Below are positions 25,063 to 50,583 of a DNA stretch of 64,000 bases, piece by piece. The translations under genes and the position numbers were made by a program. Below the pieces are notes generated by a model, which was not told where the DNA came from, did no database searches, and saw nothing but the letters and a program-made list of their open reading frames with translations. Origin of the DNA: Candidatus Zhuqueibacterota bacterium (GTDB lineage: Bacteria; Zhuqueibacterota; Zhuqueibacteria; Zhuqueibacterales; Geothermadaptataceae); contig JAUZRQ010000010.1 of assembly GCA_030950365.1 (NCBI GenBank), positions 1 through 64,000 of the forward strand, in the 5' to 3' direction. Position 1 is the stretch's first letter, and every line of letters begins with the position of its first letter.

Positions 25063-25698
25063 GCGCGGCAACGGCCGGGCACACACAAGCAGAATAGACT
25101 CGGTTATCTTCTCTCAGGATCGCAGATAGTGCAAGGAAAAGCCGTTTAACTCAAAGGCGCAAAGCTCTGTTGGCTGTAAGACTGACTTGAGAATTGCGCC
25201 TTTTTTCTCGGCTTCAGGTGCACCGTTAGACGGCGGTGCATGTTATTCCGAGCGTAACGAGGGATCTTTTGAGGCAGGGGACTTTGGCAACCGCCGGGTG
25301 CGTAAATTTATCCAAGCCGATGCTCGTGGGAATGACATGAGAAAAGGCACCCGCCGAAATAAAAAAACGAGCTGGCGCATAAATCCCAAAGTCCAGGTAC
25401 AGGAGGCCTCCTGCAGCCGGCCGCGCAGCAGGCGGCCTCAGCCGACTTGCCATACTGCGCCTGATGCTTTAGCATCAGGCGATCTATTATCTCTGCGACA
25501 TTCGCAAGCGAAAGCTCGAGGCTACCGGATGCCCGACTCGCCTTCCCTCCAAAAAACGAGATCGGCGCCCTTTTCTGTCTAGCAAAGGCCTGAAAGCCCG
25601 GCATCGTGGATCATTCATCCCGTTGCGCTTGACCTGCCTCCGATTGTTTACCATATTCTACCCAAAATGCCAAACCATTCACCAGTAAGAGGAGCACC
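25063..25698. other. Intergenic region, 636 bases, with hairpin repeat
   Basis: No convincing gene is present; short frames here lack ribosome sites and family features. It contains the perfect 10-bp hairpin at 25458-25481, AAGGCGCAAAG- and GGCTACCGG-type spacer repeats seen elsewhere, and an AGAGGAG ribosome site just before the gene at 25699. Confidence 0.6.
25458..25481. repeat. REP-like hairpin
   Basis: CGCCTGATGC (25458-25467) pairs perfectly with GCATCAGGCG (25472-25481) across a TTTA loop. No T-run follows on either strand and no gene ends nearby, so a dispersed repeat is more likely than a terminator. Confidence 0.65.
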
Positions 25699-26268
25699 AT
25701 GTCGTTCATCGGATATATCGAAGAGCACGACGCCAACGAAGCTTTGCGTTCCCTTTATGAAAAATACCGCGCGCCGCACGGCGATGTGGACCACATCCTC
25801 AAAATCCACAGTTACAATCCACGGTCGATGGTCGGGCATTATGAGCTCTACAAAGCCCTCATGTTCGGCCGCTCGGAACTGTCGCGGGTGCAGCGCGAAA
25901 TGATCGCCGTGGTGGTTTCGGCGGAAAACCGCTGCAAGTACTGAATGACCCACCACGGAGCGGGGCTCCGCAGGCTCAAGGTACCCGAAGCGCTCATCGA
26001 CCAGCTCGTGGCCGATTACACCCGGGCCGATCTGTCGCCCGCCGACCGCGCCATGCTCGATTATGCGGCGAAACTCACGCGCACGCCATGGGAAATCACG
26101 GCGCAGGATGTCGAAACCCTTCGCCAGGCGGGATTCAGCAACGCGGCCATTCTGGACATCTGCCAGATCACCGGCTATTTCAACTTCGTCAACCGACTGG
26201 CCGACGGGCTGGGCGTGGAACTGGAACCGTACTGGAAACCGGAAGAAATTAAAACCCGAAACCCATGA
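25699..26268 (+). CDS. AhpD/carboxymuconolactone-decarboxylase-like peroxidase, probable selenoprotein
   Basis: Two in-frame pieces separated only by TGA at 25942-25944 read as one 189-residue protein. The N-terminal part (SFIGYIEEHDANEALRSLYE...) and the C-terminal part (LRRLKVPEALIDQLVADY...) are the two halves of a peroxidase-related CMD/AhpD domain. The join is AENRCKY-(TGA)-MTHHG, where relatives have CxYC followed by xxHH; the TGA therefore sits exactly at the second redox cysteine (position 82, with Cys79). A hairpin fitting a bacterial SECIS follows at 25953-25974. The second half has no ribosome site of its own. AhpD-like selenoproteins with CxxU are known. Simple nonsense mutation is the alternative. 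The ATG has AGAGGAG; the stop overlaps the region of the next gene's start. Confidence 0.8.
25953..25974 (+). promoter_or_regulatory. Putative bacterial SECIS hairpin
   Basis: CGGAGC (25956-25961) and GCTCCG (25965-25970) pair perfectly around a GGG loop, with a lower CC/GG extension across a small internal loop (25953-25954 with 25973-25974). The loop begins 17 bases after the TGA. Bacterial SECIS elements are hairpins just 3' of the UGA with a G in the apical loop at about this distance. Confidence 0.6.
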
Positions 26269-26276
26269 GGAGATTC

Positions 26277-28748
26277 ATGAAACGACTGTCGTTCGCTCTG
26301 TTGCTGTGGCTCATACTGGCGCCGCTGGCCCCCGGATGGACCGGCAAAGCCACCCCCTATCAGAAAAAAATTGCGGGTATGAAGGCCTTTCCCGGCTATT
26401 TCACTTTTTATTGGGATGCACAGGCCGGCAAAATCTGGCTGGAAATTGCCCGTTTCGATGAAGAATTTTTGTACGTCAATTCCCTGGCGGCGGGCGTTGG
26501 CTCCAACGACATCGGTCTCGACCGAGGGCAGCTCGGCCGCTCGCGGGTGGTGAAATTCATCCGCAGCGGCCCGAAGGTGCTGTTGGTGCAGCCCAACTAC
26601 CGCTACCGCGCCACGAGCGACAATCCCTTCGAACAGCGCGCCGTGGAAGAGGCGTTTGCGCAGAGCGTACTCTGGGGCTTCGAGGTGACGGCCGAAGAAG
26701 AGGGCCGCGTGCTGGTGGATGCCTCCCAATTCTTCCTGCGCGACGCCCACAACGTGGCCGGCCGCTTGAAACAGCGCGGACAGGGGCAGTATCGCCTGGA
26801 ACCGTCTCGTTGCGCCTTTTATTTGCCCCGAACCAAAAATTTTCCCAAAAACACGGAGATCGAAGCGATCCTCACCTTCGTGGGCGAGCCAAAGGGAGGC
26901 TACATCCACGATGTCACGCCATCGCCCGAGGCGGTTACCGTGCGGCAGCATCATTCCTTCATCGAACTGCCGGATGACGGCTACCAGCCGCGCGCCTTCG
27001 ATCCGCGGGCCGGCTTTTTCAGCATCCGCTATGCCGATTACGCCACACCGCTGGGCGAGCCCATGGTCAAACGGCTCATCGCCCGCCACCGGCTGAAAAA
27101 GGAAGACCCCACCGCGCCGGTGAGCGAACCGGTGGAGCCGATTGTCTATTACGTGGACCGCGGCACGCCGGAGCCGATCCGCTCGGCGCTGATGGAAGGT
27201 GCAAGCTGGTGGAATCAGGCGTTCGAGGCCGCCGGATACAAAAACGCCTTCCGTGTGGAACTGCTGCCGGAAGACGCCGATCCGATGGACGTGCGTTACA
27301 ACGTCATCCAGTGGGTGCACCGCGCCACCCGCGGCTGGTCGTACGGCGGTTCGGTGCGGGACCCGCGCACCGGCGAGATCATCAAAGGCCATGTCACCCT
27401 CGGCTCCCTGCGCGTGCGGCAGGATTACCTGATCGCCGAGGGGCTGCTGGCGCCGTACGAAACCGGCAAGCCGGTCTCGCCGAAAATGCGCGAAATGGCG
27501 CTGGCGCGCATCCGGCAGCTCGCGGCGCATGAGGTGGGCCACACCCTCGGCCTGGCGCACAACTTCGCCGCCAGCGTCAACCACCGCGCTTCGGTCATGG
27601 ACTACCCCCATCCCCTCATCAAGCTGGATGCCGACGGCAACATCGATCTTTCCGAGGCGTACGACGTGGGCATCGGTGAATGGGACAGGGTGGCGATCAC
27701 CTACGGCTATCAGGATTTTCCGCCGGGCACAGACGAGAAACAGGCGCTGAACGCCATTTTGGAGAAGGCCATCCGCGAGGGCCATCTATTCATCACCGAT
27801 CAGGATGCGCGGCCGGCGGGCGGGGCGCATCCGCTGGCACATCTGTGGGACAACGGCGCCAATGCCGTGGATGAGCTCGGCCGTATTCTCGACATCCGGC
27901 GCGTGGTACTCGAGCGCTTCGGCGAGACCAACATCCAGCCCGGCGCGCCGTATGCCACCCTGGAAGAGGTGCTGGTGCCGGTGTATCTGCTGCACCGGTA
28001 TCAAATCGAGGCAGCGGCCAAAGTGCTGGGTGGGCTGTACTACACCTACGCCCTGCGCGGCGGTCCGCAGAAGATTCTGGACATGATTCCCCCACAGGAG
28101 CAGCGCCGCGCGCTGGCCATGCTGCTGCGCACATTGCAGCCGGATGAACTGAAACTGTCCGAAAAAATTCTGAACCTGATCCCGCCGCGGGCGTTCGGCT
28201 ATGCGCGCAACCGCGAGCTGTTCCGCATCCGCACATCGCCGGCGTTCGATGCCATCTCGCCGGCCGAAACCGCAGCCAACATGACCCTGCGCCTGCTGTT
28301 CCATCCGGAACGCGCTGCCCGGCTGGTGCAGTACCACGCACGGGACAGTCGGTTTCCGAGCTTCGCGGAGGTGGTCGACCGCATTTTGAAGGCCACGTGG
28401 TACGCCAAACCTGGCAAGGGCTACGAGGCGGAAATCCGCCGGGCGGTGGACGCGCTGGTGGTGAAACATTTGATGGAGCTGGCCCAAAACGCGCAGGCGG
28501 CGCATCAGGTGCGCGCCGTCGCATTTCAAAAACTGGATGAGCTGAAATCGTGGCTGCGGCAGAGGATTTCGCGCGAAAAGGATGAGGCGCAACGGGCGCA
28601 TTTTCGGTTCACCGCCTGGCTCATCGAGCAGTTCCAGCGCGATCCGAAAAGCCACCCGGATGTGCAGTCGCTGCCGCCGCCTGACGGCCCGCCCATTGGC
28701 TCGGCGGCGAAATGGGATGGGTTGTGTCGGATGGCCACGGGATTTTAG
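26277..28748 (+). CDS. Secreted zinc-dependent metalloprotease (DUF5117/DUF4953 type)
   Basis: 823 residues with a signal peptide (about 1-20). The extended zinc-binding motif HEVGHTLGLAHN lies near residue 418: three His zinc ligands and the catalytic Glu, as in metzincin-like peptidases. The N-terminal region (FDEEFLYVNSLAAGVGSNDIGLDRG...) and the C-terminal region match the large 'zinc-dependent metalloprotease' family widespread in FCB bacteria. Substrates are uncharacterised. ATG at 26277 is chosen because GAGGAG lies six bases before it; an in-frame ATG at 26265 overlaps the stop of the selenoprotein-like gene. The two genes are almost certainly translationally coupled. Confidence 0.88.
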   Translation: MKRLSFALLLWLILAPLAPGWTGKATPYQKKIAGMKAFPGYFTFYWDAQAGKIWLEIARFDEEFLYVNSLAAGVGSNDIGLDRGQLGRSRVVKFIRSGPKVLLVQPNYRYRATSDNPFEQRAVEEAFAQSVLWGFEVTAEEEGRVLVDASQFFLRDAHNVAGRLKQRGQGQYRLEPSRCAFYLPRTKNFPKNTEIEAILTFVGEPKGGYIHDVTPSPEAVTVRQHHSFIELPDDGYQPRAFDPRAGFFSIRYADYATPLGEPMVKRLIARHRLKKEDPTAPVSEPVEPIVYYVDRGTPEPIRSALMEGASWWNQAFEAAGYKNAFRVELLPEDADPMDVRYNVIQWVHRATRGWSYGGSVRDPRTGEIIKGHVTLGSLRVRQDYLIAEGLLAPYETGKPVSPKMREMALARIRQLAAHEVGHTLGLAHNFAASVNHRASVMDYPHPLIKLDADGNIDLSEAYDVGIGEWDRVAITYGYQDFPPGTDEKQALNAILEKAIREGHLFITDQDARPAGGAHPLAHLWDNGANAVDELGRILDIRRVVLERFGETNIQPGAPYATLEEVLVPVYLLHRYQIEAAAKVLGGLYYTYALRGGPQKILDMIPPQEQRRALAMLLRTLQPDELKLSEKILNLIPPRAFGYARNRELFRIRTSPAFDAISPAETAANMTLRLLFHPERAARLVQYHARDSRFPSFAEVVDRILKATWYAKPGKGYEAEIRRAVDALVVKHLMELAQNAQAAHQVRAVAFQKLDELKSWLRQRISREKDEAQRAHFRFTAWLIEQFQRDPKSHPDVQSLPPPDGPPIGSAAKWDGLCRMATGF

Positions 28749-49263: not shown

Positions 49264-49884
49264 ATGTTGAAAGATTTCCATCAACACCAGGAACCGCCGC
49301 CGGGCTTTGGGCGTGATTTTCCGGGCTTCCCCATGTCTAACCTGTGTGTGCCCTTCTCCCGTCAGCAGATCACGATTCTGCTTCTCAGTGTTTCTCTCCT
49401 GGTCCTCATCATCAATCTATGGTTCTCGTTGCGCCGACCCAAATTCCGCCGGCTGCCCAAGGTTCAGATCGCCATTTTGTCGGATCATTTCGTGCAGCAG
49501 CAGATGCAGGAATTGGCTAACGATGCGCGCCAGCAATTCATGTCCGGAGTAGCTGCCTACCAGCAGCAGCATTGGAGTCAGGCCGAAAAGCACTTCCTCA
49601 ACGTCCTGCAGCAGGAGCCGAACCAACCCAATCTGCATGCTCTCCTCGGGCTGGCGATGCTGTACGGCAAACGCACCGAAAAGGCCATTTACTACCTCAA
49701 AGTAGCTGTGGATTCGAATTGCGCGCTGCGTGAGGATGCGCTGTGGAATCTGGCGCAGGCGTATCTGCTCGAAACGAAAGCCGATCTGGCTGAAGAAGCC
49801 CTGCAGCGGCTGGTCGCCCTGAATGGCAAATACGCGCACGAGGCCAGAGAGCAGCTCCGGCGGTTGCAGCCAATCCGGGATTGA
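49264..49884 (+). CDS. Membrane-anchored TPR protein
   Basis: 206 residues. An N-terminal tail rich in His/Pro is followed by one transmembrane helix (about 36-55, ITILLLSVSLLVLIINLWF). About 150 residues containing three to four tetratricopeptide repeats come next (FMSGVAAYQQQHWSQAEKHF, LHALLGLAMLYGKRTEKAI, ALWNLAQAYLLETKADLAEEAL). TPR domains mediate protein-protein contacts, so this may be a scaffold at the membrane; no partner is adjacent. The ATG at 49264 is chosen for the strong AAAGGAGG site. It is convergent with the DUF2461 gene, seven bases away. Confidence 0.85.
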   Translation: MLKDFHQHQEPPPGFGRDFPGFPMSNLCVPFSRQQITILLLSVSLLVLIINLWFSLRRPKFRRLPKVQIAILSDHFVQQQMQELANDARQQFMSGVAAYQQQHWSQAEKHFLNVLQQEPNQPNLHALLGLAMLYGKRTEKAIYYLKVAVDSNCALREDALWNLAQAYLLETKADLAEEALQRLVALNGKYAHEAREQLRRLQPIRD

Positions 49885-49890
49885 TGTCCC

Positions 49891-50583
49891 TCAAAACGGG
49901 ATGCCCAGCGCGATACACATGAATTCCACGAACGGCGCGGCATCCTGAAACACCCGAATCGTTTCATCTACAATTTCGGCCTTTTCCAGACAGGCAGCAT
50001 TATCGGCCTCATGGCGCACCAGATATTGCTTCATCTTGAGCACGTCGATCAGCGGGTGATCGGCATCGAAACCTTTGGGTGGCCGCGTGAGACGTTCGCC
50101 GTACACCTCACCGAAGCGCTCGCGAAAAACCGGGTCCTGCGTGACCGCCTGCCACATGCCAGGATTGCGTGCCAGGAATGCGCGGATCCGCGCCAGTTGC
50201 TCGGGCTCGATTTTGAAGTGACCGGCTCCCCAGAAAATGCCGCGATGGGAAATCTGAAAATAAAAGCCCGGGTATTCGTGTTTTTTGCCGTAGTGATGAA
50301 AAAAGACGGCCGCGGTGTGAGTTTTGTATGGTAGCTTGTTCTTGCTGAAACGGATGTCCCGGTAGATGCGGTACACCGAGCCGTTGATGCGCGGATCGGC
50401 CACGAACTCGGGCGATACCTCCGATATTCGTTCACCGACCGCGGCCACAAAATCCAGCATCGCCTGTTTGACGTGCGTCTCGTAAATGCTGCGATGATCC
50501 TCGAACCAGTCTTTGCTATTGTTTTTCTCCAGTCCGGCAAAAAATTCAATGAGTTGCGGCGAAAATCCCTGGAAGGTGGCCAT
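49891..50583 (-). CDS. DUF2461 (TIGR02453) family protein
   Basis: 230 residues matching the DUF2461 family over their whole length: FSPQLIEFFAGLEKNNSKDWFEDHR at the start, YRIYRDIRFSKNKLPYKTH in the middle, and a RPPKGFDADHP block near the end. The family is widespread and cytoplasmic; its biochemical function has not been established. The ATG follows CAGGAG, which lies within the last codons of the MocA-like gene, so the two are likely translationally coupled. Confidence 0.9.
   Translation of the reverse strand: MATFQGFSPQLIEFFAGLEKNNSKDWFEDHRSIYETHVKQAMLDFVAAVGERISEVSPEFVADPRINGSVYRIYRDIRFSKNKLPYKTHTAAVFFHHYGKKHEYPGFYFQISHRGIFWGAGHFKIEPEQLARIRAFLARNPGMWQAVTQDPVFRERFGEVYGERLTRPPKGFDADHPLIDVLKMKQYLVRHEADNAACLEKAEIVDETIRVFQDAAPFVEFMCIALGIPF

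Follow-up and report, generated by a model that had tools for sequence, protein, structure and literature searches.

The window, the whole 64,000-nucleotide stretch of DNA analysed, carries on its + strand an AhpD-like gene of the TIGR01926 / CMD domain type (25699..26268), consisting of 189 codons and a final TGA stop (26266-26268) and preceded by a likely ribosome-binding site (AGAGGAG, 25688..25694, + strand) that can be read directly 4 bases upstream of the ATG at 25699. A further TGA (25942..25944, + strand) lies in frame with both this ATG and the final stop. Read-through of this codon yields a product of 189 residues with the context RCKY-U-MTHHGAG, in which the motif C79-K-Y-U82-M-T-H-H86 places Cys79 (25933..25935, + strand) at the first and the putative selenocysteine (Sec82) at the second position of a CxxU motif. 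The NCBIfam model TIGR01926 matches residues 4-175 (149.7 bits against a curated cut-off of 81.8) and the Pfam CMD model residues 49-124 (46 bits). Both matches span U82, in agreement with the preliminary description of a single domain broken solely by an in-frame TGA at the second Cys of a CxxC motif. Its remark on the lack of a ribosome site for the second half also holds, none being present upstream of the ATG at 25945, as opposed to the AGAGGAG before the ATG at 25699. Standard annotation would split the gene in two, and the active site would be lost.

In a scan of the window for in-frame TGAs with an open frame on either side, candidates were ranked by the codon score of their worse-scoring side, and on the + strand the TGA at 25942-25944 ranked first. 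The next-ranked candidate (49882-49893) was present on both strands, resembled the end of an ordinary gene together with its antisense shadow, and was rejected. Downstream, the frame of a met-zincin gene (DUF4953/DUF5117; window 26265-28748) overlaps the final 4 bases of the AhpD-like gene. Beside an AhpD-like orthologue, this neighbour was found only in the same-genus genome G054 (candidate division KSB1 bacterium isolate S140_5, WFVT01000052.1).

Relatives of the gene were sought by six-frame search in 82 genomes of the phylum, with matches in 19. In a codon-by-codon alignment TGA occupies the same column in 10/10 orthologues, namely the window gene and nine further ones, from separately assembled genomes, with 61-84% identity to it. 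When distant subfamilies are included, the 24 aligned homologues of the phylum show TGA in 22 cases and Cys in 2 at this column, so that the check proposed earlier on the aligned residue returned TGA or Cys alone, with no unrelated residue or other stop. At the first motif position, 21/24 homologues have Cys. One Cys homologue belongs to a genome (G007) with no selA above cut-off and no detected tRNA-Sec. Comparison of the window gene with its closest orthologue gives dN/dS values of approximately 0.09/1.27 before the TGA and 0.15/1.24 after it (dS being near saturation), and since dN is well below dS on both sides, both halves of the gene are judged to be under protein-level constraint.

Given that TGC or TGT is converted into TGA by one base change and that the sequence derives from a draft assembly, a nonsense mutation or a sequencing error could have altered the second redox Cys codon, leaving a pseudogene or a mis-read. 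However, the occurrence of the same TGA in the nine orthologues refutes this explanation, and both the low dN relative to dS downstream of the TGA and the conservation of a hairpin at synonymous sites (see below) also count against it, making it extremely improbable. Since an ATG directly follows the TGA and the second half is open, the locus could also be taken to encode two proteins by termination-reinitiation (TGA-ATG), that is, an 81-residue N-terminal half ending at the TGA at 25942 and a 107-residue half starting from the ATG at 25945. Yet residue 83 of the 22 Sec sequences (Ile in 10, Met in 6, Leu in 4, Thr in 1 and Val in 1) is mostly no start, the second half is devoid of a ribosome site, the Cys homologues form a single undivided frame, and the split would put Cys79 and the remainder of the active-site hairpin on different chains. 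Expression as two halves is thus very improbable.

Several variant forms were observed among the relatives. Three distant homologues (L039, L040 and L047) retain the TGA and lack the first motif Cys, presenting GxxU or SxxU motifs. Another relative (L036, G037:C155) has, in addition to the Sec TGA, an in-frame TAG 18 codons downstream, possibly because the gene is decaying or because of an assembly error. The source genome itself harbors a second AhpD-like gene (L045, G000:C75:15026-15529, - strand), which is 24% identical to the first and has an in-frame TGA (NACRYULAAHTALA) followed by a hairpin. Among NCBIfam models it comes closest to NF053654 and TIGR01926, scoring below the cut-off of each.

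The TGA of the window gene is followed by a SECIS-like hairpin (25956..25970, + strand) formed by the stem strands CGGAGC (25956-25961) and GCTCCG (25965-25970) and a GGG loop (25962-25964). The preliminary description had a hairpin with a GGG loop starting 17 bases downstream; hairpin and loop are confirmed and 17 is the distance to the loop, whereas the stem already begins 11 bases after the TGA. The published bSECIS model requires a stem of 4-16 bp, a loop of 3-9 nt with G at its first two positions, a distance of 16-37 nt from the UGA and a minimum free energy of at most -7.5 kcal/mol (PMC13188914). With its GGG loop, 6 bp and 17 nt, and with -8.2 kcal/mol for the hairpin alone and -11.9 kcal/mol for the 45-nt stretch, the window hairpin agrees with this model. 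All 22 Sec sequences (22/22) have, 16-20 nt from the TGA, a stem of 5 to 8 bp with a loop of 3-5 nt whose first two positions are G; the isolated hairpins of some relatives are weaker than -7.5 kcal/mol and still match the geometry of the model.

The free energy of the window hairpin is not unusual for a G+C-rich coding sequence: when the codons are randomised synonymously, 70% of the resulting sequences reach an equal or greater folding stability, and a 5-bp stem at the same place occurs in 4% of them. As free energy alone gives no support, the hairpin claim rests on conservation. Across the 10 orthologues, 66 degenerate columns have an invariant amino acid, and the codon never varies in just three of these (+5 GGA, +6 GCG and +8 CTC), all located within the hairpin stem (P about 2e-4 for such clustering, by arithmetic); the Gly codon at +7, between the invariant codons, varies in its third base. 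Compensatory changes that keep the stem were also found among 17 sequences of several subfamilies, with one G-C pair replaced by C-G in 5/17 and a different pair, C-G, replaced by U-A in 1/17. The covariation score of 0.218 compares with 0.080 in shuffles, is reached by 0/500 of them and is abolished by sliding of the pairing partners. The SECIS scoring that had been suggested for the region after the TGA therefore came out in favor of the element, which both fits the bSECIS model and has been maintained through compensatory changes. That an Rfam search of the region gave no SECIS family match is to be expected from the diversity of bacterial SECIS elements.

The occurrence of selenocysteine machinery, which the preliminary description had proposed to search for as selA, selB, selC and selD, was confirmed for the last three genes in the source genome, while selA was not found in the draft assembly. 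A tRNA-Sec with anticodon TCA scores 68.8 bits, with ARAGORN in agreement; selB (324 bits) lies on the same contig as the AhpD-like gene; and selD (380 bits; L022 791-1906, G000:C136, - strand) carries an in-frame TGA in the context SCAGUASKIG, so that SelD is itself likely a selenoprotein. No selA match was recovered with TIGR00474 or PF03841 in the source assembly, which is 95% complete and comprises 136 contigs. In the same-genus genome G054, selA is flanked by serB and groEL (genes named after inspecting their translations), and groEL and a close serB were likewise not found in the source assembly. Given that groEL is nearly universal and that both flanks of selA are missing with it, the serB-selA-groEL block most likely fell into an assembly gap. 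Among the 63 genomes of the class, 58 have a selA match, which exceeds the family cut-off in 55.

This machinery also bears on whether a recoded tRNA could read the TGA as some other amino acid (Trp or Cys, for example). Relatives without the TGA have Cys at the aligned position, so a functional protein would also result from Cys insertion. Against this, the AhpD-like gene itself ends in TGA, the genome has the tRNA-Sec (TCA), SelB and a SelD of the Sec type, and the context-specific hairpin points to SelB. Recoding is accordingly a very unlikely explanation, although misincorporation of Cys at low selenium may give rise to a minor product.

Together, the conserved TGA/Cys column, the hairpin, selB, selC and selD uphold the earlier interpretation that the UGA is read as Sec to give a 189-residue protein. 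We thus conclude, with a probability of about 0.96, that the gene encodes an AhpD-like (TIGR01926) selenoprotein, a probable peroxidase-type oxidoreductase, in which SelB and the hairpin direct the insertion of Sec at position 82. In the mechanism proposed, SelB bound to Sec-tRNA(Sec) would recognize the hairpin just after the UGA (25942-25944), and selenocysteine would be inserted as residue 82, where the CxxC/U redox motif has its second Cys or Sec. The finished protein would probably act as a peroxidase-type thiol/selenol oxidoreductase, with Sec82 attacking the peroxide, Cys79 presumably resolving, and Glu67, Tyr81 and His86 completing a putative proton relay. In the AhpD-like protein PA0269 the relay residues are Glu36, Cys48, Tyr50, Cys51 and His55 (PMC3141380), and Glu67, Cys79, Tyr81, Sec82 and His86 match their spacing. 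Because these five residues are present at AhpD spacing, and Glu67 and His86 are invariant in 24/24 homologues, the most likely function is that of a Sec-based hydroperoxidase or selenol-disulphide oxidoreductase. The label "peroxidase" derives from the family and the active-site residues, and the substrate and catalytic cycle are put forward here as predictions.

At the level of the lineage, a tRNA-Sec above the gathering score was detected in 43/63 genomes of the class, G054 among them. At NCBI a KSB1 entry is now placed in Candidatus Zhuqueibacterota, and KSB1 has been reported to possess selABD without selC (2022 paper PMC9012183). The detection of tRNA-Sec in 43/63 genomes appears to depart from that report on KSB1. 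The present case indicates that this KSB1 lineage decodes selenocysteine with ordinary bacterial machinery. A broader proposal is tentative and somewhat doubtful: KSB1/Zhuqueibacterota would be a lineage that uses Sec and has several AhpD-like selenoprotein subfamilies in parallel, among them GxxU/SxxU forms that have lost the partner Cys. If it is true, the Sec-retaining GxxU/SxxU forms would imply a one-selenol peroxidase mechanism; to our knowledge, no such mechanism has been described for AhpD.

With respect to known proteins, near full-length similarity, with the five best at 95-120 bits, was found to the Cys-type peroxidase-related AhpD-like structures 2PFX, 3C1L, 6K40, 2OYO and 2PRR, which have a CxxC motif at the same position, with Cys where the window protein has Sec; the fold is considered fixed because these solved relatives match so well. 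The AhpD of Mycobacterium tuberculosis has in common the active-site spacing E-x11-C-x2-C/U-x3-H (PMC3141380), but differs in overall sequence and chain topology, and the window protein has Tyr in place of its His132 and Sec in place of its Cys133. Scores for two related AhpD-type (seleno)protein families, NF041238 AhpD_rel_CFYUT (53.7 against a cut-off of 175 bits) and NF053654 GroundWater_YciW (27 against 310 bits), place the protein outside both.

That AhpD-like CxxU selenoproteins exist, as the preliminary description stated, is well documented: the first was described in 2005 from the Sargasso Sea metagenome (PMC1088965), the protein is the "AhpD-like 1" of the GOS data, abundant in ocean samples (PMC2398784), and a 2026 review (PMC13188914) lists TIGR01926 as a selenoprotein family of the CxxU type. 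The window protein resembles this family (TIGR01926 / COG2128) in family assignment, CxxU motif and the G-containing apical loop just after the UGA; no difference in kind was found, and what differs is the host lineage. The novelty is therefore modest, the gene adding a further TIGR01926 CxxU selenoprotein, now in the uncultured candidate phylum KSB1 (Zhuqueibacterota).
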